Shown here piece after piece: positions 24,360 to 63,108 of a stretch of 64,000 nt of DNA. The translations under genes were made by a program, and so were the position numbers. The DNA lies in the NCBI GenBank assembly GCA_012845835.1, contig JABAKD010000002.1:14653129-14717128 (forward strand). Reading direction: 5' to 3'. This stretch comes from Undaria pinnatifida. Its lineage: Eukaryota; Sar; Phaeophyceae; Laminariales; Alariaceae. Under the pieces are notes generated by a model that was not told the origin of the DNA, made no database searches, and saw only the letters and a program-made list of their open reading frames with translations. Positions within the stretch are counted from its first letter, which is position 1, and every line of letters starts with the position of its first letter.

Positions 24360-24788
24360 ATGTTGCATGAGGTGCTCCTCTCTCTTCTCGGCCACCCCGG
24401 ATCAATTATCCAGGAGGAAGAACCTACGGGTTCTGCAACAAGCGATGGTTTGAAATCAGGGAGTACTTTTCGTGTGCCAGACACCATAACCTTCCTCACG
24501 GCCACAGAGCGAGCAGCCATCAACAGAGTTGTAGGTATAGGGAGCATCTACCGCGACCTTCGCAAGTTCGTCACGCCAAGAGCACTTCTCTGGGAGGAGG
24601 GAGGCTGTTCTGCATCTGGCGTAGACGCGAGCTCTGGACGAGAAGGAGATGGCCTATACTTACGCGCGTTGAAGCTTGGAGTGGTGGAGGTTCTGGATGA
24701 GTATGCTGAGCGCGTGGCAGAGGTCGAGAGGGATGTCATGACCGATCCTACGCTGACGCTGGCCCGCGTGTACGCTGGGGTAAGGGAG
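24360..24788 (+). CDS. TUBGCP4: GCP4 exon 1 (N-terminal GRIP1 start)
   Basis: Encodes residues 1-143. The ATG at 24360 was chosen because MLHEVLLSLLGHPGSII aligns with the canonical GCP4 N-terminus; an upstream in-frame extension exists but adds non-family sequence. The donor GAG|GTGAGA was preferred over the nearby GTAAGG because it gives the same spacing as other GCP4 proteins before the LPAVAEACV segment of exon 2. Confidence 0.85.
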
Positions 24789-33700: not shown

Positions 33701-36700
33701 GAGATGGCATTCACGATGAAGCGAGGCGCAAGTACGTACGCGGGAAATCAAACTCTAGCACCCCCTTCTCCCACTTTGTCAGGTCCACAGTAGGCTGCTG
33801 AACGAACGAGTTCTAATGTCCTGGCGCTACCGCGATCCACTGCATGTATTGCGTCGAATTATCTTATTCCTTCCCTGCTGGCTGTAAATAGCTCCCCATC
33901 CTCCTTGACCGTGCGCTCACCCCGCTACCATTTATGTCGACTCGTCCTAGATGTTGCGAGGAACACCACTACCTGCAACATCGCCACCACCTGTCCAGTA
34001 TTGACACGCCCCGCCCCCGCAACCTGACTGCTCCGCTCTCACGTAGTGTGCTCCTCACCTAGCGAGTCTGCTCCTTGGTTGGGCCAGCCGCAGCCCGCGT
34101 GCCTCCTGGCAGAACAATCTGAAGCACCCAGGCCGACGGGGTGGTCCCATGCTGCATGCCCCGCTTTAGGTAGGCCGCCATCACAGGTGAGTATAAAAAC
34201 GAAAGCATGAAACTACGGCAATAGCTATCGTATAGGGCTACGACTGCTACCTGCTATTGGCCCAACGGGCGGAACGAAATTTGTATGTTTGGGTGCTGGT
34301 AAAACACGATTTTTGGTTGCAATTTCCCTGTGAAACCTCCCGACTTGTATCTTATTATTGGGCATAAGTACTCGCCGGCCGCCCCGGTGGTGTGTTGAAT
34401 CCTCAGTACCCTCCACACGCTCAATACCCTCAATTTCCTCAATACGCACAACACCCTCAAGTACCCTCATTTATCTCAATACCCTCAACACCCTCAAGCG
34501 CCGTCATTTATCTCAATACCCTCAACGTGCTCAATACTCACAATGCCCTCTATACCCTCAGTACTCTCAATGCTCTGGATTCCCTTTATACCCTCAACTC
34601 CCTCGACACCCTCAATGGTCTTAACACTAGAGGTGTTACCCGACGAGTACCCGTCTCAAACGGATACCCGCTATTTTCAGGGGGGAAATACCGGGGCACT
34701 CGCGAGTATTTACCTCTATTTTGGGCGGGGACAAGGGCACCCGATTACATCCGGGTACCCGGCTAATGCACGGGTAGCCGTCTAACAGTCGGGTACCCGG
34801 GTACCCAGGACACTTTGTCTCATCACGTGCGATCGATAAAGTTTGCTCCGAAATAGCTACTACGAATACACCGCTTAAGAGAGTTGTTGTAACGCGAAGG
34901 GTGCAGGACCCGGCATAACAGCGCTGCCACCAGTGATGATTTCCATACACGGGTAAAACAGAATACGCAATAGAAAAGTATTGCAGATAATATGTATGTG
35001 TGGGTTCAAAGGACAGGCGGGTTAGGCGACAGGCATGAGACATGAGACGGCATTTTCCATTTTCATTTTGAAAAGAGTTTGCTGGAGAAAATTGTACAGA
35101 AGAGTACCCAGGAGACGTGATTTAGGGAATGATAAGTTGCCATGCTGCCATGCTTGGGACCGGTACCCGGGTACTCGCTTAAAACCGGGTACCCGGATAC
35201 CCGGGGCCCAAATATTCGGCGAATATAAAGTGCTACTCGTATAGGTCACGGCGAGGCGTAAGGCATGAGACAGCATTTTCATTTTGAAAAGGGTTTCCAG
35301 GAGAATACCATACGAAATAGTACCCAGGGGACGCGATTTAGGGGATGATATGTTGCCATGCCCGGGATTTCGAACGTAATCTAACGAGTACCCGGGTACC
35401 CGAGTACCCTTTTAAACCGAGTACCCGGGTGCCCGGGTACCCGAGGCCCAAATACTCGGCGAGTATAAAGTTCTACTCGTGCCCGTGACGGGCATTAACA
35501 AGCCGGGTAATACTCGCGAGTACCCGGGTAATTGGTAAAAGGAACACCTCTTCTCAACACCCTCAATACATGATGAATATGAAGTGCCTTTAAGGGGACC
35601 GTAGTGCGCCCGCGCCGAGACGTCCCTTTTATCTCGACGTCCCGTATTAATTGTGGCACGCCTGGCACTTTGGGAGCACCCAAACTCGTTTTCTGGCAAT
35701 CTGTGCGGCATTTTGCAAGCGGGAGACAATGTATTGGCCCATTTTAAGCGACCTGGGATCCCTTATTGAGTGTTGCGTCCACTACAAGGAACGAAGTTTC
35801 TTACAGTGCGCGCCGTCCCCTATATATATTTTCCCGTTTTTCGCGGGACCCCTTGAAAGGGGCTTGCTACTGGACTCTCACTACCCGCAATACCCTCAAT
35901 ATCGTCAACACGCCTCAATACCCCTCAATACCCCCAAATATCTTGCACGTGGAGGCCCTTGGTTCGCATCCCGGTTTTTTATCGTACGTTTGTCCGTGAC
36001 TACACTACAGTAGGTTATTTGCTGTGCACAATATCCCTGCGTCGAGCGAAAAATGCGCTAACTACCTTATCACCAGCTATTACCATTAATATACTATGAT
36101 ACACATTACACCTGGTTGTTACATCTCAAACTTGAGTTTATGCAACTTTCAACATGAGCCGACAAGGGCAGGACGTGGTGAACATTTACAGTATACATCA
36201 TAGCGCCATAAAACATAAAGCCAACTGCAATACGTAAAGCCAATCGCAATACGAACGTGTACCATAGCGGGGATGGGGAGGCGGGGCCTGCCTTTCGCCG
36301 CGGATTTGAGGTACATGAAATAATGGCAAGGAATACTGCCGAGGAACTTAGCACGCGATTCACAACAATTGGAACCTCAAGCTTAGGTTGTGGCTCGTGC
36401 GCTATTATATTCTTACGGCACTAGTCCGGCACGAGCATCCCGCGTAGCCGAAGCTTGTGACGGCATCTTTTCGCCGCAGCCAAGGAATACGGAGTTACTT
36501 GAAACTTTCACAGCTTGCAAAAATGCGTTTCGACGGTATCATATCCTCGATCTCACGCCTGAGTTTTTTTTTTTCTACGTATGTTTTTTGTCGTAATTGC
36601 GGACGGCTCGTGTCATGCTGCCCTCCCTCCTCTCCCCCTATCCTCATGCATGACTTTCAACGCCGCCAATTCTACTGCTGTGACATTCAAACACAATCAC

Positions 36701-39700
36701 ATACTCATAGTACACCTTCATTGCGGAGCTCCAGGTGTCAAGTGTTTTAGAGGAAGCACTCATCGCTGTCCGCACCATGTTTTTGCCACGTGTTTGATTA
36801 GAAAAAGCACTCATGGTTTTGCCACGCGTTTGATTAGAAGAAGCACTCGGCGCTGTCCGCGCAATGCTTTTCGGTTCCCCAGTACACATCAGTCTTGCCG
36901 GCGGTAGCGGAGGCGTGCGTGGCGGTGACTGGAGACCAAGGACGGGGCCGATTGAAAGGGCCGCAGCTGCTAGAGATTCTGCACGAAAGAAGTCATTTCG
37001 GAGCACCAGATGTGAGTAACGTGCGCCAGGTAAAGATGATTCCCAACCGCAGTGGTCGTTTTTCTCGCAGTGGTTCGTTGACGTCGCCCACGTCGTGATA
37101 CGAGCGCTTGATGACTATATGGACCCCCTTGGCTGCTGCTGTACCCCCTGAAAACTGGTGACGTCCAAGCCCGGGTACGATGGTGACATTTTTTCTTTTG
37201 TAGATATTGTATCCTTGCCCACTCGCGCGACGCGTTGAAGTGGCTGGCTGGATGGTGCTCGGTTGTTCTAGTGCGCTTTTAGCCGATTTGGTGTTGAAGC
37301 CCTACTGTACTACGATCAAGAATGTTTCTTGGGCTTCTTTCAATCGTTTAGGTTTAATATGCTGGCGGGAATCGAAGATCGCGGGTGCTCCCGCCTCCGT
37401 TCCAACGACGCTCGCGTCATTTTGTACCGTGTGAGCTACAGTTGTGCAGGTACCTGGTAGAGCAGGCTCTCTTTTCCTCCAAACCCCGCCGTCGCTGATG
37501 GACGATAAAGGACCCTTTTCGGCAGGCGCGCAATCCTTCCCTCTCATATTCAACCCTATGATATGCTACCCTCTAATGCTACGAACTATACCCTTCGATA
37601 ATACCCCCTCTGATTTTTTACGGATGTGGTGGTTGGGTCTTGGTTAGGTGAGGCAACGACTGCGCCGCCTCGTGTGGTACTGCAGCCAGGTACTCATGAA
37701 CCAGTGCGTTTCGTGGCTCCTCCACGGACTGGTGGTCGATCCGTGCAACGAGTTTTTCGTGCAGAAGAACGCCCAACCCAACGGTGAGAGTGAGAGAGAA
37801 ATATTGGCTGACCAACCATTGACTATGTCTGCAAAACTTTGTCAGTAAGAACCCCCGAATCGCTTGCGTTCGGCGTGAGTTTGCTCGCCTACACGTGACA
37901 CCTTCCCCACGAAGAATCGGTTCCTCATTTCTGTAGCCTTCCACTCTGAATCAGATCCCGGCGTAGACATGCCTAATTATCTATTATACCGCAAATCGCT
38001 TTTAGCCAGTTACTGCGTTTGCGAAGGCCGCAATCACGTCTACGGACAGACCTACCGACCTGCTAGTGTAACGACTAGTGTAGCTACTGCGCTTGTGCAC
38101 CCAAACCGATGGCGATGTTGACCTGCGCGAGACCTAGCACTGCTTTGTTGTTCTCCCCCCCCAATAAAATTCATAATAGTTGGGCCTCGGTTGGCACCGA
38201 CGCTGTAAAACATTGCATGTATATTGGGGTTGGCGTTGGTTGGCAACGACGCTGTAAGACATGCCAATCACTGCGTGAGCTAGACAACCAGGGTACTCTT
38301 TTTTTGCCGGTGACCATGATGGCCATCGAGTTAGATCATATTGTGCGGGGTGGATAACCCTCTCTCCGCACAAGGCGGATGATTGCATCACGTAGTGTAA
38401 ATATGGAAGGGCACCCACGAGGCAGTTACATAGTAATACCCATTGCTGTCTCTGGAATGGCCACACCAGAAAACAACGTAACTCATTGGCGCTGTCATCC
38501 ATAAGCAAGAAAGTAGGCACAAGGTGCCGAAGTCCGTCTTACGAGCGGTTCTTGGAAGGATGCAGTTAACCCTTCATTTCACTCGCCGAACACCTCACGG
38601 CGCTTCGCGCTTGGTGCAAGCAGTGTCTACCTGGTTGGTGAAAACCCGTCGTGCTTCGTCCCGGCATAGTAGGGATGCGAGGGTCTACGGTCATACGACT
38701 ACGGCCATGCACAAACTGAGTGCACCCCCCCCCGTAGCCTACTGTGGCACAAAAACGGTCGAGCACTTCTGTATTGTAATTCTCAAATGCCCTAGGTGCA
38801 GATGCTGGACGCTGCCTAATGCACAGAAAGACGCCAACAGGCCTGGGGAAAACGTTTGCCGAACAGAATTGTTGGAACCGCGTGGGGTTGTGCCCAGGGT
38901 CCCCTTTCTTTGGCTGTTGGTGTCTTTGAACATTGGTGGAGGATTGGTCTTGACTGCCGGAAAAATTGAAGCGTTCATCCACGATCTCCTGTACGGCGAG
39001 AAGAAGTGCCTTCTGCATGTATGTGTTGGCCTGGCTCCTCGCGCTCCCTCTGCATTCACATATTGGCCCCTTGGGCCTTTCCGTGCATGTGTTTTTGGCC
39101 GACATCATCGAACGCTCATGGGTTTTGTGGGCTCTAGCAAACAGCGGACGCGCAAAACTTTATACTTGACTCGAATTGTCTATGTTCTGCTACAAGCTGG
39201 GCCAGCCAAATATCTGTAGGGGCACTTGATTGGCCATGCTGCGCTCCTTTTTACCCATTTGAACGTGAACTGTGAACACGGTCTTATTTATGCACCAAGC
39301 AGCACATTGAATGCAGCTCTTTTTGTTATGAGTTTTTTGTGGTATGCACCTCTTGTGTATGTAGCGCTCGGACGAACTACCGGGCAGAACGCGACCCCGA
39401 CCGGCACACCTACTGAAGGCCTCCTTCCTCCACTCCGCCGCTGAACGTTCCCCAAACATGACCCAATTGTGATCGATTATCAACAGGCGGCTCGGTTAGA
39501 CCGGCTCTGTCTGCGGGGTTTGACGGTTTAGGAAATGAGCGGCACGCTGCGTTCGAAGAGGGTGACGAGGCGGCCTCCAGACGTGTGGACGACTGGGGCG
39601 GCGAAGAGGAGTGGAACTCGACTTACACCGTTCGGTTAGCATTAGTGCCGACTACCTTCGTGCCCCACAGGTAGGACTACTACTGCTGCTACTCCTACTA

Positions 39701-42700
39701 CTGCTACGATTACTAGTGCTGCTGCTAATTCCACTGTCCCTACGACTTGTACTACTGCTGCTACTGCTACTACTATACTACTACTTCTACTATTGCTACT
39801 ACTCCACCTCCTCCGACCACTACTACTACTCCTGCTACCATCACTACTACCATCACTACTACCTTTACTATTCGTACTGTCTGCAGTATAATTTCCAAGG
39901 AAACGACTTGCCATGTTACACGGCCGCGTAAAACACGGGGCCTCTTTTTAGCTAGATGGAGCCGAAGATCCGTACTGTCCAACCGGAAATCTCCGGAGGG
40001 GGTTCTATACCTTCCACCAGCCACCATCACGCACAGTTGAGGATTAATAACATCCGTGAGGTCGAGTTCGTAGCGAGAGCTACGTACCCTTTTTTATGTT
40101 GTGCCCGTCTACGCTATGTCAGACGCCTTCGCGGAGCGCAATCCACTGCCTCTGGCTTCGCGTGCTTCTGCAAGCCTGCCCTCCATTTGTACGGCGTTTC
40201 CTCGGCCGCTGTCTGTGTTGCCTCGAGGTTGAGTCCACCTGCTTTGTATAAGGCAGTATTAGTTTCGCTACGCAGCTCACGTGTAGTGGACCACATCTCG
40301 TATCTCGCACGCGGAGCGACAAACGTCACCGGCGCTTGACCGGCGTCTACTCCCACAAGAACCGTCGCCATGAATACATGAGTCGTGAGCCACCGGCGTT
40401 CTCTGAGGCAGTACTGGCTTCGTTGCGCAGCTCACGTGTAGTAGACCATATTTCGTACTCGTTTCACGCACGCCCAGCGAAGCACGTCACCGGCACTTGA
40501 CTTGACGGGCATCTACTCCCATCAGTACGTAAGGCGAAGCGACCGGCAAGAGCAAGGGCAATTATGTTCATGTGCACGACACGTTACATTGTCACCCAAA
40601 CACATGTTGAGCTATTCATGGCGCCTCCATTCCTGTCATTACGGCTGTTCTTGTCTTTGGTACTTGGCACGCAGGCTTGCACAGAAGATGCTTTTCGTTG
40701 GGAAGGTGGTGCGCGTTTTGCGCCAGGCGAGTCCTCAGGATATTTCCGCACAACAAACGGCTCCGTTCGCTGGATGGCCAAGCGAGCCGGGAATGAAGGT
40801 GAGCAGCCCAAAAGCCGCCCTCAAGCGTTCGTCTTCGGACCTGGATCAGCATCAACATGATCAGCATCAAAATCGACATTAATATCAACCCATCATCCAT
40901 CCATCTATCGTGTCGTATCATCGCGTGTATACATCAGGCGTTTGTGTTTGTTTTTCTTGGGTGCGTTGTAATTGTTTTTGCTTCCCCGACGTTGACTTCC
41001 CGAGCCTTGCCGTTCCTGGGCAGGTGCCTCTAGCCTGTCTTTTTTACCCAAACCGACTATCCGGAGGGCCCAATCTGGTTCTTCACTTTGCATTCGCCGG
41101 ACTCTGGTTACCGCTTGGATTTGAACGCCGTGTTTGAATTTCCGATTTCCGTCCTCCGCTATTCTTGTAGCGCGTTCAGCGTAGCAACCGCGAAAATAAC
41201 TTCTGCCGTGAACTGCGGGAACAGCCCTGAGAACCGTACGGGGTGTATGTCGATAGCAATACCTATAGTACCTATCCTTATACCAGGTACCAGGTACTGC
41301 ACAACAACGGCGCCTTGGTAGCATTGAGGTAGCATTGAGGTAGCATTGAGGTAGTATTGAAGTAGCATTGAGTAGAATCCCCCAAACCGCTCATTCGAAA
41401 CTACCAATCCAATATCTCTGGCGTTCACACACGGCTAAGACAGGAAAGGAAAAAAAAAGAGTCACTGAACGAACAAAACCAAGGGAACCTAACCAGGAAA
41501 GTCAAAACGTTTTTGGGAAGACGAAAATATTGTAGTTGGTGACATGGAAAGATAAATACGACCTGTTGTTTCAAGGGTGGCGATATATGTTGAGACGTTT
41601 GCATGTATGTCCCTCCAACCTGTTGCTGTGCGTACGGCCCCTTCCGTTGGTTGTCGGCCATTGTGCAATATATGGCGGGCTGAATGACGCCACTCTTATT
41701 AATAGGAAGGTGGCTTGTCGGCAGTTCTGTCGTCAAACATTTCAGGTGATGGTGCTGGTGGCGGTGGGAGTGGCGGGATGGGCGTCAGCGAAGCGGAAGT
41801 GCTGGAGCTGACGCAACGGTGGTCCGACTTGTGCGACAGGGAGTCCTTTAACCTCTTGGCAGTGGAGAGGGCGGTGCACGAGGTGACAAACGGTTGGCGG
41901 TGTGTCGGTACGTGTAGCGCCAATCGCTTGTGTATAGCTTGTGTAGTTCAGGAGGAGACAAACGGTCGCTGATGTGTCGGTATGTGTAGATTCAATCGAT
42001 TGCATGTTTCAATCGCTGTTGTTGTCGCATTATCTTACTGTGATAATTTAGTTGGTGGCCACAGAACATGCCCCAATGTCTCTGGAGGGGACGAACACCT
42101 CTCGAATATAAACAGAATTTCACACAAAACTAAAGAAAATCGTCCGCCTCAGAGAACGTTGGGCTGTGAAAAGGGACGCCCTATGATATGCTCGTGTTTG
42201 TGGCATAGCTTTTTTTTTTTTGCTTTGTTCGCAGCGAACACAGAACCCGCAGATGTGCGCTGGCTGCGGAAAATATCAGTGCGGCTGGGAAGCAAGCACG
42301 ACGCGTGCATGACTATTGGGCGTGAGGTTGATCGGCCTACTCGCCGCGCTGTCTTCAAACCCTCCTCTCCTTGCCAGGGACCAATCATCACCAAACAATA
42401 TCAATAGTATGGTGCTTCATATCAGTGCTGAAACCAACTCGCCAATATCGCCTTGCCAAATGCTGCAGCCCCGTACCACTACAGTCGCGGTCCCGTGTTA
42501 GTGCGGTATTCTCAAGTGCAACAGCCCTATTTAGTGCGGTGAAAACCGCTTGTCCCGACCCCGTCCTACTGAGTGCCGCACTATCCCGGGGAGGTATAAT
42601 TCGGAGTCCCAGTTTAGTGCGGGTGTTGTCGTCTGGCAAGGCATCGCACTAACGACTAAATAGGACCACGAGTGTACTATAGAACTTCTCCCTTGAACGT

Positions 42701-45700
42701 TGAATTTAGTTTCATGTCTCCAATTTGTTTTCCAAAGAGTTTACCAGGGTATTTCCTATTTGGTTCTTCATCGCCAGTATAAAAAACAGTTGCGAAAAAA
42801 CAATATACCTTTCTTCGAGCCGCTTTTCCATTTTTCTTCTCCCTCGCAGGTGAAAGCTAATTAATTTATAAAAAAATATAAAAAAATGAAAATAATGTCG
42901 TTGATTCGTATCCGGCAATTAGTTATCTCACCCCCACACCAGTACATACCAGGTATAGACTTACATACATAAATACTTCAGCGTATACCAGGTATATACT
43001 GATATTTATTCTTGCTAGCACCTGGTATTATCAGGTATTATCACATGACCTTACACTACCCCCGCCATGAAAATTGGTCATCATGCTGCAGGCGCACGCT
43101 CTGGTAGACCGGCGACTGTACCGCCTGCTGGTGAACGTGTCGGGGTTCGAAAAGCATGTGGCCATCCTCAAGGGACTGTTTCTCATGGGACACGGCGCGC
43201 TGTTCCATTCTTTCTTCGACAAGGCCAGGATGGCTATGCGTACTCCTGCGGGAGATCGGTGCGAGCAGGATTGCGACTTGCTGACTTTGTGGCCTGATTA
43301 TGACCTGATTATGACCTGATTACGACCTGATTATGACCTAATCATGGCCTAGTTTCTGATTATGACCTAACTGTGGCGGCCTAATTTCTGATTATGACCT
43401 GATCATGACCTAATTATGGCCTAATTTCTGATTATGGCCTGATTATGGTGCGATTATGGTGTGATTGTGTATGGTGTAATTATGTATGTTGTGATAGGAG
43501 GAGGGGTAGCACGTTTTGGTAAAAAAAAATTTACTGACAGACTGACTGACAGGCTGAGTGAGTGAGTGATTGAGTGAGTGAGTGAGCGAGAGTGAGTGAG
43601 CGAGTGAGTGAGTGAGTGAGTGAGTGAGTGAGTGGGCTCCTCAACTGAGGATGTCTGAAATGTCACACAGTTGTCACACAATATCGCTACAGCTTCATGG
43701 ACTGCAGTATGTACACTAGGCGTAGAGTATCTGAAGTATTTGTATTACAATTATTCGACAACACTATCAGCATTAGGGATTGTTCAGCGGGCTGCGCTTC
43801 CATTTATATATACTGTACTGTATTGTACTGTACTGTACTGTACTGTACTGTACTGTACTGTACTGTACTGTACTGTACTGTACTGGAAATCTCTTTTTGG
43901 GTAAGATATAGAAAGGTTCAGAGTTTATCAAGTCAGGAGCTCAGAAAGAATAACAAGAATAACAACGGTTGCTGCAAAAGGTGCACCCTTGCCGTAGCGT
44001 GGTTTTCAATACACAACACAATACACAATACACAACACAATACACAACACAATACACAACACGATACACAACACAATACACAACACGATACACAACACAA
44101 TACACAACACGATACACAACACAATACACACACTTACCCTTCGCTCCTTGCACACAACTTAACGCATAATATGTCTGGATCAATCGCCTACCATGCACTT
44201 TGGTCCCTCCCCCTTAGCTAATCCCTTAGTTAACCCCTTTAGGACTGCACTAACGAAAAGCCTCAAATCTTAACATTTAAACCTTACACTTGAAGCTTAA
44301 AGCTTAAACCTTAACGAGACAACGTACTTGCAAATTAAATACATATTTTTCTAGCAGAAATGAGGGTAATAACGCCATGCTATGTACGGAATGGGGGGCT
44401 CGCAATATTGCCTTATGGCTACTGATAGTGCCACCGCTCTCTATAGTGCCGGTGAAATCCCTTTCCACGTCTGGAACTCTATGGTATATATCTATAGCAC
44501 CCCTGTTCCCGATAGTGCCGGTGACCTGCATAGTGCCGCTACATTAGGGTGGCAAATACCGGCACTGTTGAGAGCCCCGTTCTGCGTTGACCAGTCGCCT
44601 GCCGTATGCTTCGCAGGGCGGTGCTGGACCTCAACATGTGGCTGGCAGCGGCTGCCGAGGACAACGAGGGCGGGCACGCTTCCCTGCCCTCCTCAGAGAA
44701 TGCCCTCAGCAGAGCCATCATCGCTCTCGACCCGTCCGGCTTCACCTGCAAGACGTTTCACGACCTCGCGGTACGACCGGCTTCCTGTAATTTGTAGCGC
44801 ACGTGCCCCCCTTTCTCCAGTTTTTTTTGTTCGCGTTTGTTTTTTCCCAGAGAGAAATGTGTACACTGGTTGCCGCTCCCTGTTAGCGCATGCCCCCCCC
44901 CCTCCAGTATGTTGTCTCTTTTGCTTGCCCGTATTTTTTTTTTGTCGCAGAGAGGTTTGCGGGGACTGTTAGGATTCGCCGCGAGTTCGTAAGTCGCATA
45001 GTAGCAAAGCTTGCGGATATCGGTACGAGGATAGTTGTTTTCCGCTGATGACGCTGCCAACACCTCTAAGGCGCCAGAGCCCCGTGACTAAATTAAGCGC
45101 GAACCGGTGGCACACCAACGATGGTACACTAACGTTGGCATACCAACGGTCGCACTTCAACGATAGCACACCGACGGTGGCACACCAACCAGTGGCGCAC
45201 CGACGATAGACAGCAACAGTGGCACACTAGGGCCCCGTGACTAAATTAACCGCAAACCGGTGGCACACCAACAATGGTACACTAGCGTTGGCACACCAAC
45301 GGTGGCACATCGACGGTAGCACACCGACGAAAGCACACCAACAGTGGCACACCGACGATAGCACAGCAACAGCGGCACACTAACGGTGGCAAACCACGGT
45401 GGCACACCAACGGTGGCACTCCAACTTTTTTTTTTTCACCGTTTGTGACGCGTTCCGCACCCTGTCCTGACACTCAATGCGTTAACCGTGCAGAAGCAAG
45501 GCTTTTGTGTGACCGGGAGGGCAAGGCCTATTCCCAAGAAGTCTGGCGTGTGCCTCTGTCCTGGTGGCCCCGATACCCGACCCCCCCCCAAAGAACCGCC
45601 TTCCTCCGCACCGCCCGGGCCAGAGCCTAGGATAGGGCCGGGCGGTGGCTCCTTGTGGTATACATCTGACCGAGAGCTACCCCGGGGTTTCATGAGCTCG

Positions 45701-48700
45701 GTGGCTTTCCGATGCGATCGTACCCAACACAACGCCAAGGAGAGTTCAGGAGAGGAAAAGGGGGCAGGCCCCGTGGGGGGATGGGGGAGCGTAAGCTTAG
45801 TGATACACAACCATCGCCCTTCTTTGGCAGCGGGGGGCGAGAGAGGGGGTGAGGATGGGAGGGGGGGAGAAGCAGCAGCGGTGCCGAACAGCTTGTCTGT
45901 ACGACTGGAGCCTGATGGCGACGGTGGTGGTCAGGTCGAGCTAAGGTGTAACGCAGGACTGGAACGTATTCATAGTTTTAGGTGATAAGTGATAAGTGAT
46001 AGGTGATATGCGACAAGTGCTACGATAGAGGTGCCCAACTTTTTTTCTAATACTACTCCTCATTTTGGGAGGTTAAGTGAGACATCTCCTTCTTAACCCA
46101 AAAACTGCTTTGACAAAAATAAGGTGAAGCTGCTGTCATATCATACCATATCATACCGGATGAAATATCCCATGGCTTGAGTACACGACGAAAAGCAATC
46201 ATGCAAAGGAGTGGCCTATTATTTATTTTTTTCCCGAAGATTTTGGGTTAAGGGGCCCCGTGATTCAGGAGACACCATCCATTTCACACGAAAACTGCCA
46301 CCTACCTCTATCGTAGCACGCGTCATGTTCAAATGGTTGGTGTTCAAATGTTCGAATTGCATATTGGTGTTGTTCATGTTGGTGGTGTTGCTGACGGTGG
46401 TGGTGGTGGTGGTTGTGGTGATGGCGTTGTAGTTGCTGCTGGGGTGCTCTTGTTGCTTCACAATGTTGTTGTCACATTCACTCATCGCCGTAATATGCCA
46501 ACCGCCTCCACCTGCCCGCCGTTGCCTTGCCAAAGGTGGAATCCCCACCTGCCCCCGTCGTTTCCACCTTCAGCGACGGGCGCGTCATCCGACTTCAGAG
46601 TGATCTCACTCGACGACCCCAGTGCAGGCCGAGGTTCACAGTTGCGTACGCTTGGGCACGCTACCTTGCCTCGCTCTTGTGGCCTCTCTCTCGGGCACGT
46701 GAATTACCTCGCGGTAGACTATGCCCTTGGAGAGGTGAGGCCAACGAGAAAGCCTCGAGGGGACGAGGAAGAGGCGGCGTCGGGGAAGGAGGCAAGACCA
46801 AGCGCTAGACTGAGGGTGTTCGTGAATGATCCTGGTCGATTGGGGTCTGCTGTGCTGTCCGTCGCTGTGGACTTGTGGGCTCTCATCGAGATGGGCGGGT
46901 GAGCGCCATTGCTGTATGCATTGCGTTACTGTTTCTACTGTTCGGTTGTTATTGTTACTGCTGTCACTGGTGTTGAGGTTGCTACTGCTGTCGCTACCGT
47001 TGTCACTGTTACTACTGTTACTATTGTTGCGACTGTCGCTACTGTTGTTGTTATCGCTGCTGTTAGTATTGTTACTGCTGCTACAGCTGCTACGTGGATT
47101 GCACTCACTGCGAAGCCGTGCAGGGGCGTCGCTTGGTGTCCGAAAGTTCTGCGGGTGACTTGGCCCTCTGTCCGCAATGAGCAAGCGGGTGCGGGTGTGT
47201 AGGATGCACATGCCGTTCAGGCAACTTCATGAAAGTGTTCCCGCGGCTTTGCTTTGACTTGAGGGTGCTAACGAAGTAATACTATCAATACTATCAATAC
47301 TATCAATAGGATGATACTGTCAATACTATCAATACTATCAATACTATCAATACTATCAATACTATCAATACTATCAATACTATCAATACTATCAATACTA
47401 TCAATACTATCAATACTAATAGTAGGATGCTGTGCTACAATTCCAGGGTGTTTGTGGTATTAATAGAAGAAATTCGCAGAAACTTACCCGGAGACGATAC
47501 CGCCTGTGTTTGTCGAGCTTCACACTTACACTCCCCCATTTTAATCTACGACCCGCTCCCTGAGACGCTGCCGCTTCCGTTGAACTCCACGTTCGCCCCC
47601 CCACACATACTTTTTAGCTTATGACGCGCTCCCTGAGACACTGCCTTCCGTGTTTATCTAACTCCTTCGCTTACGCACCCCCCCTCTTTAATTTGACCCC
47701 GTTCGGGGTGCTGTATGTGCTCTACATACCCGGCCAGAGGGCGTGCGTTCGTGGGGGTGTCTGCAGAAGGCCCATGGAAAACCACGTTACGACAGGTGAC
47801 TCTCCTGCCAAACGGCGATTGTTTTTTTGGCGGCGCCATGGCCACTCTAGCCTGCTAGTTGTCATACCATGCGCTGTCATCCCAACCCTATGTTCCGTGC
47901 CGTTTTGGTATGGTTCTTGTATCCGGTAGTCTGTTATGCTCTGCAACGTGTTTGACGCGGCCATGGAGAGGGTTGGAGAGGGTTGATAACTATCCATGGT
48001 AATTCCCCATTGTCGACGTTCGAGTGTTGGGGAGATGCATCATAAAAAATGCCATTGTAGTTCCTCGTGGTTTGTTTGTTTTTCCATGTAGGCACAGACA
48101 GGCATTGCTCGTGATGGATGCAACGCTACTTTAAGGGCGGGCGTCGTACGAAGAATCGTTGAATACGAGCTTAGCGTAGAGAACAATTGTGTTCCCCTAC
48201 AGTTTGAGTAGTTCCTAACAAACGATATGGACTTGCCAGATGATGACGCACAGCCCCGTGTCGTGTACTCCACATGAGCCTCATCTCAGCGGCGCACGTA
48301 TCCCGCAAAACGCTGCAACCTCTTCCGCTGTTTTTGTCCAGTGGGAATTCCGTCTGGGCAGTGCCGCAGCCGCCGGTAAGACATCGGGGCCGTTAGGAGG
48401 AATTGGGTCTGGCCCAAAGGTGGAAAAGATGGTGGAAGCTATGGACTCGTGGAACGGGCTGTGTCTAGACTACAGGTGATGGATGGGATAGATGGGATGG
48501 ATTTGATGGATGTGATGATGGGATGGATGGGATGGATGGGATGGATGGGATGAATGGGATGGATGGGATGATTTTTTTATGGATGTGATTACGGGATGGA
48601 TGTGATGGATGGGTGCTACGGTAGGGGGGATTCATAATGTTTTCGGGCTCCTCGCATGACATGATGACATGATGACATGATGATGACATGACGTCAGCTA

Positions 48701-51700
48701 TACCTCTCCCAAAGACTTGCTTTTGAGCAAACTGGTTAAAAATCTTGTTTCTTAGGTACTCCGACAAACGATCGACTATGCCAGGGCCAAGGCTTCGTAT
48801 TTGCGTCGTGGGCTTGAATGAGCACCATAGTAGTGCCATGTTGACATTGGCTTGTGTTTCTGAATCCACCCTGAGCAGCCTGGGTGTCTCGAAACCTCGT
48901 GTTTGCGAGGTTTACGAAGGTTTATGAAGCCTTCAACTGCGTGTTTAGTAGCATATTTACTGTGGAGTACCCGGGCACCAACCCGAGGTACACCTGTGAC
49001 GTGAACGTCTACATAAAATGGTATATACCCTACAGCAGTACCCGGGTACCCGAGTACCCTCGGAGTGTATACCCTACTTACCACACCCTTGGAAGAAGCT
49101 TATGGGCATGTTACTCATTTTTTGTTGGTGGGTATGCCCTCCAGGACACACGGTCGTATACTGTACCAGGTATAGGACAACTACTAAGACGCAGAAACAC
49201 TGACCCGGGCTGGGTTTCTTATTTGGGAGAGGCTGCATTCTACGCTAACTTCGTTATAACGGCTCCGGGATTTACTCTTTTCGTTTCTTATTAATTATCT
49301 GGTATCCTGTTCTGTACCTGATAGTATACTTCGAAGCATGTAGTTTCGTTTGTTGCGGCTTTTTTTTAGCGCTGGCGTGCTCAAGACATGCACGGTGGAT
49401 ATGCGACATGCCTACTCGTAGCGATTATATGCGGACATGCTCCTAACCTACCGCTTTTGTGTGTCATATGTCATGTGTCATATGTGATACGTGGACTTGT
49501 GCGATGTGCAGACTGGAGTGGCCGCTACACCTCATTCTGACGCGAGAGACAATGCACATTTACAATCGTCTCTTTCGTCTTCTGGCCTCGGTCAAAAGGG
49601 CTAGCCTTGAGCTGGAGAGGGTATGGCCCACATTAATGCAGCGCCGGTATCGGTGAGTCGCTATTACACTACTAGCAAGGGTGGCGCCAAGGTGTTCCCC
49701 TCTATGCAGCAATTGTGCGCTTGCATCGCCTCTTGTTCATGCTTTCTGCAAGACAGACGTTTTACCAATGTGTATCGTGCATAACTTTGTTTTTCTTTGC
49801 GGCATATCATTTGCGGCGTAACAATGGAGATCGTGTGTGCATCGTACGACTCCCGCGTGTAATGCTTACCCATTATTTCGCACCTCGACCCAGAGCAGAT
49901 CCCAACCATGATCTTACGTCTCACAGAGCAGATAGGCCCCTGGTCTATATGAACTGTACCGTGTATATGACGTTGCCAGGAGGGAGCCGTTGCATGACCT
50001 ATAGCACAGTTTTATAGGTTTGATCTGTACTACACAGATCCTGTATAACATATCATAACATCATACCGACAGATACAGGACCCAGATGATCTAGATCGTG
50101 ATCTGTTCTCGGTGTGCATTATTTGTAATCTAAAGCAGGTGTTGACACAAGGTGTAGGGTACGTTCGCGTTCATAGATCGATAGCTGACAAGGGCCACCT
50201 GCCGTTAAACACAAGAGGAACACCAAAGCCCAGCATAACGCTCTGGACATAATTGTAATGTAACGACCGTTTGGTCATATCCATATCCCAACGGTCCTGA
50301 CATTTCTGTCCAGACTGGTACTTGAATCCGTCCCGTAGACTAGATTTGACCAGTTGAAGCGTGTCGTTTTTCACTTGGTGGTCTCTGAGTTGTCGTCTTT
50401 GGCTTGGTCATCTCTAACTTGGCTGGCTGCGTCTGTAGCGGGCAGACCAACAACGAGAAGGCGTGGCTTGGCCCTCTCTGGATGCTGCGGGCGCGCATGG
50501 CGTTTTTCGTCACAAACCTGGCGTTCTACTTGCAGGTAAGCGTTTGCTGTATAATACCTGGTAGCACAGAACTCTCGCCGCACCGGTCATTTTTGGAAGG
50601 GCGCACAGCCAATTTTGTGATTCTGTATTATAATTATTTTCTGACTGTACTGCAGCCGTTTATCTTTCTTGTCTTAAAGCACCCGTGAAATCCTGGACAT
50701 GTTTTTGAAGGAAATATAGGATTTGGGCGGCCCACTCCACAGCGGATGGGTGTCTCGTAATTTTCAGCGTATGATGTTTTGCGGTTTTTCACGGTCGAAA
50801 GTTCTTCGTCCTCTGCAAAGTGCTGCCGGGAATGCGTCGTGGATGTGGCATTCTCGGTGCAGATGATAGGCTGATCATAGGCTGACAATGTTGTCTGATA
50901 GCACAACACAGACGACTTGCGTAGATTCCGCTTGTCGTATCTAGTACGTTTGGCGTGCATCACCAAACCTCCTTTCGGTACTCGCGATGTTCATCTGTCT
51001 TGTAGGTTGTGGCCACATTCTATTAATAATAACTTGGATCTCTCCAGGATGAAGAATTAGCACGGACACACGGACACTACCAAGTACATGTAAAGGATAT
51101 CGATGGGTAGAAATAACGGTTTAGTGTGCAGAACACACACGCAGCGTGTTTCACTGTACTCGCTTGCTGATCGTGCCCCCAACGTATGCTGGTACGCTAT
51201 ATGACGTCTGGTTTATTGTCTGTGTAGGTGGATGTGGTGGAGGCCGCACACACAGTGCTCAAGGCCAAGCTGGAGACGGTTCGTGATTTCGTCAGCCTCC
51301 AACGCGCTCATCAGGACATGTTGTCGACATTGAGGGCGAAGTTTTACTTGGACAACCTAGAGATATCTCAGGTGCAGACCCTGTTGTGGCGAACGGAAAC
51401 AATTTCTTCCTTAACCCCTTTGATACCTAGATTATAGCGACAAAGCAAACGAAAAGTGTGGTCCTCTGTGATATATGTGCGCCATACCAATAGTGTCATG
51501 CAGGGAAATGGTCGTTCAACTCCATGCGTTGAAGTTCATACGCTCCATTCATGACAGCCTTGTCGCGCCATACGAATAGTATCATGCCGCGAAATGGTCG
51601 TTCAACTCCTTGCGTTGAAGTATACGCTCTATTCATGACAGCCTTGCCTCAGCACTAAACAACCCCGGCCGGTTCGTGTGGCCAATGCCTGTCAGCAAAA

Positions 51701-53502
51701 TATCGTTTCTTGCAACATCCCACCATTTGGGCATGTTTCCCCAGTAAAGTCCCACAGGGGTTACGTAAAGGACGTGACCACACCACACCGCCTTACGCTT
51801 GTGTTGTGCATTTTACTCTTGGCGTGTGACTCTAAGGTATGCTTCTGGTGGCACGACTGTTGAGCGGTACCAGTGTTTCCCCGCAACAACCTCCCATACG
51901 CCGCCGTCTTATCCTTTTTTTCTGTTGTGTTTCTGCGATTATCCGTCGGTTTTTGCTCGCGTGAGAGGAATGCATGTATCAAAATGCTGCCTATCCGTCG
52001 GTTGAGTTCACGTGAAGAAGACGTGTCCCTCAACCTACCTTTCCGTCGGTTGGTCTTGACGTGAAGACGAAGACATGTCCCCAAAAACTGTTTTTCCGAT
52101 GGCGTGTGGGGGAAAACGTGTCCCAAAAGGCTACTTTCTCGTCGGTTGTGTTCACGTAAAGAAGGCCTATCCGTCGGTTTGTGTCAATGTGAAGAGGAAG
52201 GCGGGTCCCAAAAGCCTGCTTGTCCACCTGTTGTATTCACATGAAGAGGAGGCGTGTCCCCAAATTTTGCTGTCAAAAGGCTACTTAACGATTTTCCCCC
52301 GCAACGTTTGCCGCGGTTGCCTTTCCCTTTATGTATAGGCATGAAAGAACGCCATGAGGAAATCCTCAACACCCAAACACACAAGGCAGCACCAGCGCTT
52401 AACCTCGCCCACCAAAGGAAAACCGGCAAACCCGAGAATGGTTTAGGAATTTTATTTCCCATCGCGGGGAAAATGGCAACTGTTCTGACGTTTGCTGAAT
52501 TGTCGACGCAATGCGTTGAATTTGATCGTTTTCTCGTGCATAGGGATTAGGCCGAGCCTTGCGGCATGTGCTGCGCTTCTGCTGCCTGTTTGCGTTGCAC
52601 GGGGACGTCAAGGACATCAGCTCCTCAGAGGTTACTGCACTCCATCAAGCTTTCCAAGATGAGATGAAGATCCTCATACCGGTTAGTAAAGAGTTTCTTC
52701 TCAGTCATCATGGATGTTAGCAAGGTTTGATCATTGAACGAAGACTTCTTGGACCGGAGCGTGCTTTAGTTCCGGCTGTAGCGAATCAGGGAGGTCATGA
52801 CCGCCTGGGAGGGATTATTGATTTTGAATATTGGTGTTCCGCACACAGAGTTCACGGAGTACTACCGCGCAACGCAGAAGAAAGACCAAAGTAGGGGCGT
52901 TATGCACGATGCGGCGCCGTGCGACTATGGCTTGACCCTGTTGAGACTCGTGTATATGCGATAGAGTAGACGCGATTACAAATGCAACAAGTGCGGTGTT
53001 ACCATAGTGTGAGCTTGCGGCATAGAGAAATACGTGGTATGATTGTGCATAATTGTGCAATACAACTCCTTATTGGAGTCCAACATGAAAAGCACCACCC
53101 CCTAACCTAGCAGCGCCAGATGCTTCGTGTGGCCAATGCTTTCGATTACTCGTCAAATTTAAGTCAAAGATCTTTGTAGGGCTGTAAGCTGCATGGCCCG
53201 GTTACGAGCCAATGCCACTTAGCCTGGATACTCCCTATCCACGCCGCATTTAGGTGTGGGAAATATAAGAAATACAGAGCATTTTTTTCAGATCGCAAAA
53301 GCCTGTCCTCCGAAACATCGATTGCGTCAACTTAGTCGTGGCATCATTTGCGGTATATTTCGCCTTTTTCGGCGCCGCCCCCATGTGGGCTCAAACTCCA
53401 ATCGTTGTTTCGTGACTCCCGCCTCAGGTGCTGGAGAGGCTTGCCAAGGAACTGGCCATGAGGCTGGATTTCAATGGACACTTCTCAGTGGAGGTTTTGT
53501 AG
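24360..53502 (+). CDS. TUBGCP4: Gamma-tubulin complex component 4 (GCP4) with an inserted lectin-like domain, 16 exons
   Basis: Exons: 24360-24788, 36883-37011, 37648-37783, 39532-39670, 40675-40798, 41706-41882, 43092-43258, 44617-44770, 45494-45981, 46536-46898, 48290-48475, 49512-49652, 50439-50535, 51228-51371, 52544-52681, 53428-53502. All introns are GT-AG, all phases match, and the total is 1029 codons including TAG. GCP4 usually has about 670 residues; the excess is an insertion in exons 9-11. Family landmarks: MLHEVLLSLLGHPGSII at the start, GLYLRALKLGVVEVLDEY, LVWYCSQV with WLLHGLVVDP, LAQKMLFVGKVV, LFLMGHGALFHSFFDKA, DYRLEWPLHLIL, MAFFVTNLAFYLQVDVVEA, AMRLDFNGHF at the end. The protein is a core structural subunit of the gamma-tubulin ring complex that nucleates microtubules. 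Intron 1 is 12.1 kb; the other introns are 0.55-1.75 kb. Confidence 0.9.
26467..26735 (-). repeat. Right copy of the inverted repeat, with a short open frame
   Basis: Minus-strand partner of the 23482 repeat. After the shared block the frame reads MSFNKIFDLTGGVYFYFYNI and continues to 63 residues. I do not know the protein. Related starts (AGCTTGCAAA[AG]ATG) also occur on the plus strand at 25953 and 36510, so this is a dispersed family. Confidence 0.55.
26780..27400 (+). repeat. Repeat with poly-G tracts, three copies
   Basis: TGTGCGCGGA, AATCCTT-AAGGGGACAAA and GGAATGCATCAGTTTAT recur near 26790, 26998 and 27303. Runs of 15 or more G precede the second and third copies (26957-26973 and 27266-27283). 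Strong G-quadruplex potential on the plus strand. Confidence 0.7.
28330..31060. repeat. Related minisatellite, block B (first intron of GCP4)
   Basis: Units of about 44 bp with consensus parts GACAATGTCTATCGATAGACA, then CCTTCCACAAT, then CTATTGTCG. Most regular at 30480-31020, looser at 28330-28830 and 29120-30110. The same TATCGATAG and CTATTG/CAATAG palindromes as block A, with a different spacer, mark a common origin. Confidence 0.75.
31190..32110 (+). repeat. ~300-bp tandem repeat, three copies
   Basis: Copies start near 31220, 31522 and 31829 and share CCCCCATTCCTTGG, GAGCGC..TCGAGTCGGCC, CTCTCCTTTGTT, AGGCGTATCA and GGTCGGTTT-CACCGCCCTC. Divergence of roughly 15-25 percent by eye. Non-coding, inside GCP4 intron 1. 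Confidence 0.7.
32316..33710 (+). pseudogene. Degenerate Arg/Gly-rich reading frame of unknown origin
   Basis: One plus-strand frame runs from about 32316 to 33272 with only two stops (near 32670 and 32878). It is rich in Arg, Gly and Glu and includes a perfect-frame 120-bp tandem duplication (33031 and 33151) whose second copy has two extra bases and so shifts frame. A further frame at 33407-33676 reads LDRVEAMLQVVMFLAIYIVN and LEKYLQVLGREIGGFHAI before a stop. It lies inside GCP4 intron 1. A retroelement or captured gene relic is possible; no family is recognised. Confidence 0.3.
33031..33269 (+). repeat. 120-bp tandem duplication
   Basis: Two nearly identical copies beginning GGGGGGTAGT at 33031 and 33151, each containing GGGGTACCAGCTCAAGATA and ending with CATGGGCCTCCATCAGGG. 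The second copy has two extra A residues (GAAAAAGACC versus GAAAGACC). The near identity indicates a recent event. Confidence 0.9.
34385..34625 (+). repeat. CCCTCAATA-type minisatellite
   Basis: Imperfect 9-11 bp units around ATACCCTCAA and CTCAATACC. A small related patch is at 35878-35940. Starts directly after a SINE-head-like sequence at 34375. Confidence 0.7.
34640..35530 (+). repeat. GGGTACCC palindrome clusters with a ~230-bp duplication
   Basis: Many overlapping GGGTACCCGGGTACCC-type palindromes. Two diverged copies of about 230 bp (about 35015-35245 and 35245-35480) share GGCATGAGACA, CATTTTGAAAAG, GTACCCAGG, GATTTAGGG and a terminal GGCCCAAATA-TCGGCGA-TATAAAG. Similar palindromes recur at 49040 and 62380. 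Lies in GCP4 intron 1. Confidence 0.7.
38290..38740 (+). repeat. Dispersed ~430-bp element, copy 1
   Basis: High similarity to 60075-60520 throughout, sharing GTGCGGGGTGGA, CACAAGG, ACATAGTAATACCCAT, GGCCACACCAGAAAA, CGGTTCTTGGAAGGATGCAG and ACGGCCATGCACAAACTGAG. Begins after a poly-T run and ends at a C-rich run in both copies. Lies in GCP4 intron 3. Both copies keep an open frame ending MHKLS, but many differences are amino-acid changing, so it is probably non-coding. Confidence 0.8.
39671..39895 (+). repeat. TAC/CTG/ACT trinucleotide-rich tract
   Basis: Starts directly at the donor of GCP4 intron 4 and alternates CTACTA, CTGCTG and CACTAC units. Frames through it are Leu-, Tyr- or Ser-rich and not considered coding. 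Confidence 0.85.
41318..41372 (+). repeat. 11-bp repeat GTAGCATTGAG
   Basis: Five units (one with GTAGTATTGAA) in GCP4 intron 5, just after two overlapping TACCAGGTA words at 41281 and 41288. Confidence 0.9.
43290..44130 (+). repeat. Four different simple repeats in one GCP4 intron
   Basis: Intron 7 (43259-44616) contains, in order: GATTATGACCT units (43298-43440), a GAGT tetranucleotide array (43555-43634), a TACTG pentanucleotide array (43812-43886) and an ACACAATACACAAC array (44010-44130). Each is nearly pure, so all are young or actively maintained. Confidence 0.9.
44617..44770 (+). CDS. TUBGCP4: GCP4 exon 8, last exon before the inserted domain
   Basis: Residues 434-485. Begins by completing an Arg codon split with exon 7, then AVLDLNMWLAAAAED, and ends with ALSRAIIALDPSGFTCKTF, which matches the segment just before the variable loop in plant and animal GCP4. 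The donor leaves phase 0, matching exon 9. This fixes the insertion point of the extra domain. Confidence 0.85.
45095..45425 (+). repeat. ACACCAACGGTGGC minisatellite
   Basis: Units of 14-17 bp with CACACCAAC and GGTGGCA. An embedded longer repeat, CCCCGTGACTAAATTAA, occurs at 45080 and 45233. In GCP4 intron 8, just before the exon that opens the lectin-like domain. Confidence 0.8.
45494..48475 (+). CDS. Lectin-like (ConA/L-type jelly-roll) domain inserted in GCP4, exons 9-11
   Basis: Exon 9 (45494-45981) encodes a proline/glycine-rich lead, then SLWYTSDRELPRGFMSSVAF (near residue 540), SVSLVIHNHRP, and VPNSLSVRLEPDGDGGG. Exon 10 (46536-46898) has LGHVNYLAVDYALGE and, later, ARLRVFVNDPGRLGS and LSVAVDLWALIEMG. 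Exon 11 (48290-48475) has ARIPQNAATSSAVFVQWEF, then returns to GCP4 with DSWNGLCLDY. This order (WYT..GF..F.F; V.HN; NSL.V.L; Y..VDY; L.V...; VDL; closing W.F) follows the strand order of L-type lectins. The metal- and sugar-binding Asp/Asn residues of true lectins are not obvious, so the fold may be kept without carbohydrate binding. Low-complexity Gly/Glu insertions interrupt the loops. Domain assignment is by motif recall only. Confidence 0.65.
46905..47090 (+). repeat. GTTACTGCT-type trinucleotide tract
   Basis: Degenerate GTTACTGTT/GTCGCTACT repeats right after the donor of GCP4 intron 10. Frames through it are Thr/Val- or Leu-rich and not coding. Confidence 0.8.
47277..47420 (+). repeat. 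9-bp repeat CAATACTAT
   Basis: About 15 units, nearly perfect except a short AGGATGATACTGT break near 47310. GCP4 intron 10. Confidence 0.95.
48478..48625 (+). repeat. GATGGATGG minisatellite
   Basis: Imperfect GGGATGGATG units starting immediately at the donor of GCP4 intron 11, followed by a smaller GATGACAT repeat at 48655-48690. Confidence 0.9.
49512..53502 (+). CDS. TUBGCP4: GCP4 exons 12-16 (C-terminal GRIP2 domain)
   Basis: These five exons rebuild the gamma-tubulin-binding C-terminal domain. Exon 12 reads RLEWPLHLILTRETMHIYNR and LLASVKRASLELERVW. Exon 13 reads WMLRARMAFFVTNLAFYLQ. Exon 14 starts VDVVEAAHTVLKAKLE and has RAHQDMLSTLRAKFYLDN. Exon 15 (52544-52681) reads ALRHVLRFCCLFALHGDVK and ends at ILIP. 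Exon 16 gives LAKELAMRLDFNGHFSV and the TAG at 53500-53502. The exon 15 acceptor (CATAG at 52541-52543) was chosen because it alone keeps phase 0; a more obvious AG seven bases downstream would break the frame. Confidence 0.88.
51480..51650 (+). repeat. ~86-bp direct duplication
   Basis: Two copies share GCGCCATAC-AATAGT-TCATGC, GAAATGGTCGTTCAACTCC and ATTCATGACAGCCTTG. GCP4 intron 14. Confidence 0.85.
51975..52265 (+). repeat. ~55-bp tandem repeat, about six copies
   Basis: CCGTCGGTT, TTCACGTGAAGA and GTGTCCC-AAA recur in order with spacing of 50-60 bp. Lies upstream of exon 15 in GCP4 intron 14. Confidence 0.75.
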
Positions 53503-57128: not shown

Positions 57129-57640
57129 ATGCCAGTTTCTGGAGGTGTTCGCGAGATCGTGCCACGAAACAATCTGAGCGAAAAAATTCGGCACCGCTTG
57201 ATTGAGCACTTACTTGCTTTCGGGCAGCAAACAAGGCCAACTGGGCGAGGGCGACCTCACTCGAGCTGCACAAAAGTTTGCATGCTCCCGCAAGCAGGTC
57301 TATGCAGTGTGGTCGCGCTACTCGCAGCAGAGGAATGACGGTGTCGTCGACATCAACCTGCGCAATGGCCGTGGTGGAAGGTCTGGCAGAAAACGCATCG
57401 ATACCGACAAAAATGCAAAGAGGCCCTGAAAGAGGTACCACCACTCACTGCAAAACCGGACCACCCAGAGAGCTGCTGCAAGGCAGCTCGGCATATCACA
57501 GCAGACACTCCACAACAACCTCAAGCACCTTGGGATACGTGCGGCGTCTCGGTTCCTCAAGCCGATCTCGCGTGCCTTGCCGTGCAGCGAGGAGGCGTGG
57601 GTCAAGGCTCAGGAAGCCGCGGGTGGGGCGGGAGGAGAGT
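57129..57640 (+). pseudogene. Tc1/mariner-type transposase fragment, frameshifted
   Basis: Three frames in succession match one ancestral DNA-binding region. The first starts MPVSGGVREIVPRNNLSEKI. The second, after a shift near 57225, reads GQLGEGDLTRAAQKFACSRK and GVVDINLRNGRGG with SGRKRID. The third, after a shift at an AAAA run near 57461, reads NRTTQRAAARQLGISQ and later GIRAASRFLKPISRAL. These are the helix-turn-helix and linker parts typical of stramenopile mariner-like transposases. The DDE/DDD catalytic part is missing downstream, where the sequence turns into a GGAGAGTGAGGGGG repeat. Clearly inactive. Confidence 0.7.
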
Positions 57641-61764: not shown

Positions 61765-63108
61765 TCACAGATAGGAGTACCACTCCATGCCCGTCAGGTA
61801 CTTGGGATGGCAGCTATCGTCCCCTAAATCGCGTACCCTGGGCAGTACTTCCTTCAAGATCTCCAAGGAGCCCTTATCAAATTGAACTATCACAATTTCG
61901 CGACGTGACACGATACCGGCAGGTTTAAGGCGCTATTGAGTCCCGGGTAGGGGGTTGGTTACCCGATGCCGTCACCTTTCAAACCCCGGGGAAGGCGACA
62001 TATAACAACATACCTAGACATTCCATAATCACGCTCCCTGGGCAGTACTACGTACAAAGTCTCCAAGAAATCGTGTTCAAAACAACACGCACGTCACACC
62101 ACACCATGACTACAAGTAGCTTCGAGGGACGCAGTGAGTGCCGGGCCAGCAGCCCAATCGTTGGATCTCTTTGCACGCATAATACGGAGCATGAAAGTCA
62201 CCGTGGCAAAGATCTTGTCGTATGTTGCACCTGTTGCGTTCATCGCCATTTGTTAGTTTTCCAACCTATAATTGCAACCCTATGAACCAATAACTAGCCA
62301 ATAACTAGCCAAGAACTAGCCAAGAACTAGCGAATAAATAGCGAATAACTAACGTCCTGGGCCTATGGGCAGGATACACGGGTACCCGACTGATAGACGG
62401 ATGTCGGCGTAACTGCCCACAAAAGGCGTATCTATCTGCGAGTACCCTGGGTATTTTCCCCAAAAACAATAACGGGTACCCGTTGGCCACGGGCAGTTCC
62501 TGGGTTACACCATATTTATGTCGATAAAAGGAAGCCTATGCCACCACCACAGCCATCACTGTGGCTCACAGCGCTGTGCTCAACTGCGCAAAAACTATCA
62601 TCATATACCTGGTACAAAATACAACAACAGCTAGACTGAAGGCATTCTCTCAGTCAGGGCCCATACCAACTGAAGAATCAGCAGTCCAACCTCGTCTGGA
62701 GGACCAGGCAGACAGAAGTGATCATCATCAGATCCTAGTTCTGCCCCCATCGTGAAATTACTCATGGTCTCCATCATATTGTTGACCGGTATATGGTTCC
62801 CTTTAGCGGCCAAAAATGCCTCTCTATCACCGAACTCCCAGTCATTAATGTTGCCTACTCCATCGTATGTCGCGAGCCATATAAAAGGGACGCCTACTTG
62901 GTGGAAATGCTGTGCAGAAGCGACCGTGCGTTTCGTGTCCATGACCGGCTTGTTGCCAGAATTGGCGACAACGACGTCGTAATCGGACATAGAGGTGCCA
63001 AACTCCTGAAAAGAGTGCTCGATCGACTTGTTGCCCTCATGGTGTGCAAACCAGTAGTGAACCGTGACGTTATTGTCAAGCTCATAGACTGCTTGGTCGT
63101 CGCAGCAC
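61765..63108 (-). CDS. SGNH/PC-esterase-like protein, 3' part (partial gene)
   Basis: Main exon 63108-62667 (acceptor TTTTAG) reads CCDDQAVYELDNNVTVHYW, later SDYDVVVANSGNKPVMDT and GVPFIWLATYDGVG, and the hallmark DDDHFCLPGPPDE. The last motif contains the Asp-x-x-His of the PC-esterase/TBL group of SGNH acyl-esterases. A donor after LILQL is in phase 0 with exon 61872-61765, which adds LEILKEVLPRVRDLGDD, KYLTGMEWYSYL and a stop. If that donor is not used, the frame stops at 62631 after 11 more residues. The N-terminal part with the GDS block was not found between 63109 and the window end. Likely an acyl-esterase or acyltransferase acting on secreted polysaccharide, but substrate is unknown. 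Confidence 0.6.

Follow-up and report, generated by a model that had tools for sequence, protein, structure and literature searches.

A predicted ConA-like domain inserted between the GRIP halves of gamma-tubulin complex component 4 in the kelp Undaria pinnatifida

The stretch analysed here, referred to as the window, comprises 64,000 nucleotides of the Undaria pinnatifida genome (contig JABAKD010000002.1, positions 14,653,129 to 14,717,128 of the forward strand), and holds on its plus strand a gene for gamma-tubulin complex component 4 (GCP4) that carries a large insert between its two conserved halves, GRIP1 and GRIP2. In the corrected splice model, the gene extends from 24360 to 53502 and consists of 17 exons encoding 1033 residues, with no internal stop; all 16 introns are of the GT...AG type, and the exon phases agree throughout. 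Exon 1 (24360..24788) contains the start codon, begins MLHEVLLSLLGHPG.. and encodes residues 1-143. It is followed by exons 2 (36883..37011), 3 (37648..37783), 4 (39487..39670), 5 (40675..40798), 6 (41706..41882), 7 (43092..43258) and 8 (44617..44770), the last of which contains the end of the GRIP1-side sequence, ..LDPSGFTCKTFHDLA (residue 500). The insert, 326 residues long (501-826), lies between this point and the GRIP2-side sequence SWNGLCLDYRLEWPLHL, and is encoded by exons 9 to 11 together with the beginning of exon 12. Exon 9 (45494..45945) encodes the start of the insert, a linker, and then the elements GSLWYTS..GF..F, SVSLVIH and PNSLSV, where strands are assigned by homology to a model of the Ectocarpus protein P0003; exon 10 (46536..46898) contributes HATLP, VNYLAVDY, ARLRVFV and VLSVAVDLW; exon 11 (47738..47795) is a microexon of 58 nucleotides, RAFVGVSAEGPWKTTLRQ; and exon 12 (48342..48475) encodes the closing segment WEFRLG, a linker and the beginning of the GRIP2 side (SWNGLCLDYR from 48447). 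The gene is completed by exons 13 (49512..49652), 14 (50439..50535), 15 (51228..51371), 16 (52544..52681) and 17 (53428..53502), the last with the stop codon.

Except at splice choices, the encoded protein equals P0002 (EukProt jgi/Undpi1/5528), which is the annotated model of the same gene. The two differ at the exon 5/6 junction and in exon 13, which encodes the conserved start of GRIP2 and is missing from P0002, but occurs in each of the five remaining proteins long enough to cover it (P0003-P0007); since the frame is kept (phase 2 to 2), the omission is either an annotation error or an isoform without part of GRIP2. The first-pass annotation of this DNA had recognised a GCP4 with an insert of about 330 residues and a strand-like pattern at this position, both of which agree with the present model. 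Its 16-exon version was one exon short, and of the three insert exons with matching phases that it described, exons 9 and 10 stand, while the third was misplaced through a wrong acceptor at 48290 and the missed microexon. The microexon was located by translating the window, and the phases then fit with the acceptor at 48342. At this exon 11/12 site all seven relatives described below (P0002 included) read (R/H)AFVGVSA(E/Q)G(P/A)W(K/R)(T/A)TLRQW(E/D)F, and the acceptor at 48290 was rejected because the residues it adds occur in none of them. A donor for exon 1 at 24815 was likewise rejected in favour of 24788, the donor used in P0002, P0005 and P0007. The gene contains repeats: intron 1 (24789-36882), of about 12 kb, contains tandem repeats with periods of 43 and 86 bp in several arrays within 28476-31015, as well as a duplicated unit of 120 bp (33031-33269). 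Further arrays lie directly 5' of exon 9 (45079-45425; a 153-bp unit with subrepeats of about 14 bp) and between exon 10 and the microexon (47278-47418; (AATACTATC)n), and these arrays flanking the insert exons may hinder gene prediction there.

The protein is recognised as a GCP4 by its family matches and its solved relatives. In the 16-exon protein, the Pfam families GCP_N_terminal (expectation value, E, of 1.9e-42; 146.3 bits, cut-off 29.4) and GCP_C_terminal (E 1.1e-42; 147.1 bits, cut-off 25.8) are both found well over their cut-offs, with no Pfam family besides these two at E up to 10. The best solved relatives include all PDB chains named GCP4, which match at E 3.0e-56 to 3.3e-56; the best GCP2 chain comes next after them at 4.9e-15, and two further chains, labelled simply gamma-tubulin complex component, reach 1.9e-56 and 7.3e-54. 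The window protein is closer to GCP4 than to GCP2, 3, 5 or 6. In the PDB alignment, the start of the protein resembles that of other GCP4s, and the alignment to the solved chain is interrupted, with window residues 466 to 832 (16-exon numbers) standing against chain residues 395 to 447. Human GCP4 is described as having no added sequence outside the grip motifs, whereas the GCP4 of the window has its 326-residue insert; this insert is a variation on GCP4, and gives no ground to deny orthology.

The first-pass annotation had proposed looking for the insert in related GCP4s. Two protein searches, the first using residues 510-920 of the uncorrected model as query (E up to 0.01; the 7993 candidates sharing most words were scored) and the second residues 780-1042 of the corrected one (E up to 1e-8), gave an identical set of seven proteins, all of which carry it. 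Five of these bear brown-algal names (Undpi1, two from Ectocarpus, P0003 and P0004, Scytosiphon, and Hapterophycus, P0008), and P0005 and P0007 carry EukProt gene ids. The independent evidence amounts to fewer than seven cases, since one of them (P0002) is the very gene in the window and two others (P0003 and P0004) come from Ectocarpus; in addition, the first strand block is missing from the model of P0007, and P0008 is an incomplete sequence. The searches need exact shared words, and few GCP4s beyond close relatives were reached.

Within the insert, identity to the window protein (P0002 left out) is unevenly distributed. It amounts to 84-92% for the block GSLWYTS..RCDR, compared in the five sequences that contain it, to 85-88% for VPNSL..RWNPH, to 65-85% for the VNYLAVDY block and to 74-77% for the closing block ARLRVFV..WEFRLG, and these four main strand blocks are free of gaps save for nine columns in P0008. 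The short SVSLVIHNHRPSL block is also free of gaps, at 46-62% identity. Over the whole insert, identity is 56-60% with 55-106 gap columns, and nearly all insertions and deletions fall in the linkers; for comparison, GRIP2 shows 80-82% (only 10 residues being compared for P0008) and GRIP1 61-67% (P0003 barely covers it, with 9 residues). Drifting linkers combined with mostly preserved predicted strands are what a folded domain under constraint should show. In the Hapterophycus protein, nine residues are added to the insert where exons 9 and 10 meet, probably through a slip of gene prediction. Searching the genome, 511 Mb in 68 contigs, for the insert domain at E up to 1 gave only three exons of the GCP4 gene itself; the domain is present in single copy, in a search that distant copies could escape. 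As a conserved domain architecture of GCP4, the insert is well supported.

The fold was modelled on P0003, and the strands and fold of the window insert were assigned by homology. The model contains a predicted beta-sandwich with the topology of the ConA-like superfamily, and the domain would comprise about 245 residues plus flexible linkers, with its predicted core at residues 552-797 (45647..48359, introns included). The structure comparison VIA lists 50 entries (993 chains aligned), 8 of which are chains of the gamma-tubulin ring complex (gamma-TuRC) matching the GRIP2 part; the 42 matches listed on the insert comprise 3 legume-type lectins, 3 members of the CBM66 family and 36 galectin-type entries, a large share of which represent the same few proteins in variant form. 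Several results weigh against this assignment. The model is of low confidence, with a mean predicted local distance difference test score (pLDDT) of 47.6, a predicted template modelling score of 0.34 and values of 41-77 in the strands of the insert. In Foldseek, the lectin-like matches start only at E 5.9e-3, with root-mean-square deviations near 8, behind a coronavirus spike (2.6e-3) and a VTC chain (4.4e-3). Finally, no lectin family is recognised from the amino acid sequence in Pfam, NCBIfam or the PDB sequences, by either single or profile searches. On balance, we consider it likely that the insert domain is a ConA-like beta-sandwich. The first-pass annotation had seen in it the strand order of L-type lectin/ConA-like folds and had proposed a fold prediction as a check; its interpretation is partly supported.

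None of the six aligned inserts matches a Pfam or NCBIfam family at E up to 10, nor does the window insert alone match one in Pfam, and the curated galectin profile gives no match (no Pfam family was reported at E up to 10). In L-type lectins, the metal and sugar motif reads VEFDT..N..D..H. By inspection, the corresponding Ca/Mn and sugar-binding residues are not seen in the insert, where the place reads VPNSLSV.LEPDG.GGGQV..R in six sequences, and there is no Asp at the loop preceding the SLSFV strand. Since there is no lectin profile match and the metal and sugar motif is replaced, sugar binding appears unlikely.

In GCPs, GRIP1 provides the lateral contacts between subunits and GRIP2 binds gamma-tubulin. 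At the hinge between the two, the kelp GCP4 would display an extra folded domain, which is probably a degenerate ConA-like fold and most likely acts as a protein-binding module, without the classic sugar chemistry of L-type lectins. Such a domain could fasten the ring to a microtubule-organising centre or control its closure, like the grip1-grip2 insertion of animal GCP6, and two copies could be shown per ring if GCP4 occurs twice, as PMC5881034 considers possible. The same paper states that GCP5 and GCP6 carry their own insertions between grip1 and grip2, that GCP4 has none, and that the insertion of GCP6, a target of phosphorylation by Plk4, is implicated in recruitment to keratin. As a further precedent, PMC12094035 describes CDK5RAP2 as binding to GCP2 between its GRIP1 and GRIP2, and GCP4, 5 and 6 as the docking place of the NEDD1 pinwheel. 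In brown algae, vegetative cells contain centrosomes of an animal-like kind and lack a cortical cytoskeleton (PMC6678760), which makes centrosomal anchoring a natural first candidate. Because the predicted beta-sandwich appears loosely tethered at the hinge, its core being conserved and no sugar site being recognisable in it, we lean towards a GCP4 with a ConA-like protein-docking module that anchors or regulates the ring, and not a sugar-binding lectin; protein binding, anchoring or regulation by the domain is inferred.

The same conserved and nearly gap-free strand blocks would also fit a packed domain, and the main rival to a docking module is accordingly a structural brace, in which the domain lies against adjacent GCP subunits and makes the ring stiffer or sets its size with no outside partner. 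GCPs 4-6 limit and stabilise the ring according to PMC5881034, and the insertion of GCP5 packs on the lumenal face of GCP6 according to PMC12094035. The linker before the first strand block is, however, long, poorly conserved and of low complexity, which suggests a loose tether, and we regard a brace as rather unlikely, if a serious competitor. Less probable again is that exons 9-11 form an alternative cassette, the skipping of which would yield a compact GCP4 and make the long form a special isoform. Their total length of 873 nucleotides is divisible by three and their borders are in phase 0, as such a cassette would require; yet the insert is included in all seven gene models returned, a more distant protein labelled as an MMETSP transcript (P0011, below) has its insert as well, and a skipped form would still retain the closing segment, which lies in exon 12. 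The galectins and legume-type lectins among the ConA-like structural matches could speak for a working, glycan-binding lectin through which the ring is attached to a cortical or glycosylated partner; given the missing family match, the replaced motif and a protein expected to be cytosolic, we hold it to be very improbable. A gene-model artefact, with insert exons that are non-coding or part of a different gene, might be suspected from the adjoining repeats; it can practically be dismissed, as the phases are consistent, no stops occur, and models annotated separately in other species show the same flanks and a conserved protein.

Beyond the close relatives, a third protein search with the alignment of the seven as query (E up to 1e-5) gave ten proteins: six of the earlier seven, the animal GCP4s of Sycon (P0009) and Anabrus (P0010), P0011 and P0012. 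The two animal proteins have just a short stretch at the insert site, in line with the first-pass annotation, which had called the site short in animals. P0012, of 350 residues, matches the GRIP1-side Pfam family only and is uninformative on the insert. P0011, an MMETSP transcript protein of 1012 residues, has an insert of about 300 residues at exactly the same site in GCP4; from its very high transcript number one might guess at a dinoflagellate. By BLASTP, residues 2-543 of P0005 align with 1-472 of P0011 (E 9e-24) and 903-1125 with 774-1007 (E 4e-26), leaving an unaligned middle of 359 residues in P0005 and 301 in P0011, with LDPPGFSCKAFQDL against FVPNQFELQSFNDC and LWYTSDREVPRGFRSSVAFR against LWLATRQRVARSFGHSFSFQ at the flanks.

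When the conserved blocks were placed in order on the P0011 insert, the score reached z 5.9 with the flank block (0 of 2000 shuffles) and z 4.0 without it (1 of 2000), and blocks B1, B4 and B5 gave z 4.9 (0 of 2000); controls, consisting of windows off the insert in P0011, P0009 and P0010 and of the reversed insert, scored at most 21.7 against 85.3. A number of observations speak against a common origin of the two inserts. The blocks were picked after seeing the alignment, with P0007 left out; blocks B1-B4 alone give z 2.55, which 29 of 2000 shuffles reach; the three middle blocks place weakly; and 10 of the 720 possible block orders, the true one included, attain the score of the true order. 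When the insert profile A2 (6 sequences) was set against the insert of P0011, hhalign assigned a probability of 0.4%, and the predicted structure of the P0011 insert has ten-residue pLDDT means of 22-42, the other rows of its alignment being the two animal GCP4s. Against the PDB sequences, the only match of the P0011 insert is a low-complexity one to TCP-1 delta (E 0.84). Viral and prokaryotic contigs, scanned with two short peptide patterns each, contained no relative of the kelp insert. Judged from the sequences, the P0011 and brown-algal inserts are probably the same domain. One could further speculate, and we do so only tentatively, that the ConA-like domain is an old part of GCP4, dating at least to the common ancestor of brown algae and the P0011 organism, that the compact GCP4 of animals is a reduced form, and that the domain, where kept, gives the gamma-tubulin ring a second docking face, one that is non-helical.

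Elsewhere in the window, an open stretch at 57208-57420 has weak helix-turn-helix matches just under the cut-off (HTH_28, E 2.7e-5; DUF7769, E 2.5e-5) and is perhaps a transposase remnant. Two open frames on the minus strand, 15677-16831 (385 codons) and 62634-63125 (164 codons), appear gene-like by eye and match no Pfam family at E 0.01.

In the titles and abstract openings searched, we found no report of such a domain in GCP4, which the accounts of the gamma-tubulin ring consulted present as a minimal subunit without added sequence. A conserved domain within GCP4 would mean that the shape and docking surfaces of the ring vary between lineages, and it names a specific, testable part of the ring for brown algae, whose animal-like centrosomes in vegetative cells were noted above (PMC6678760). 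Should P0011 carry this same domain in its same-site insert, GCP4 may in its ancestral state have exceeded human GCP4 in complexity.

Among known systems, the closest is GCP4 itself (TUBGCP4), to which both Pfam halves, the best solved relatives and the GRIP2 segment of the window protein all correspond. ConA-like domains are otherwise found in L-type lectins, galectins and CBM66; the kelp insert differs from these in lacking a sequence-family match and a recognisable metal or sugar site, and in sitting within a microtubule nucleation protein. The likeness to GCP5 and GCP6 is one of arrangement, as these too are ring-specific GCPs with an insertion between grip1 and grip2. In PMC5881034, however, their insertions are described as unique sequences unshared with other GCPs, and by this description they are set apart from the kelp case, in which the carrier is GCP4 and the insertion a predicted ConA-like beta-sandwich.

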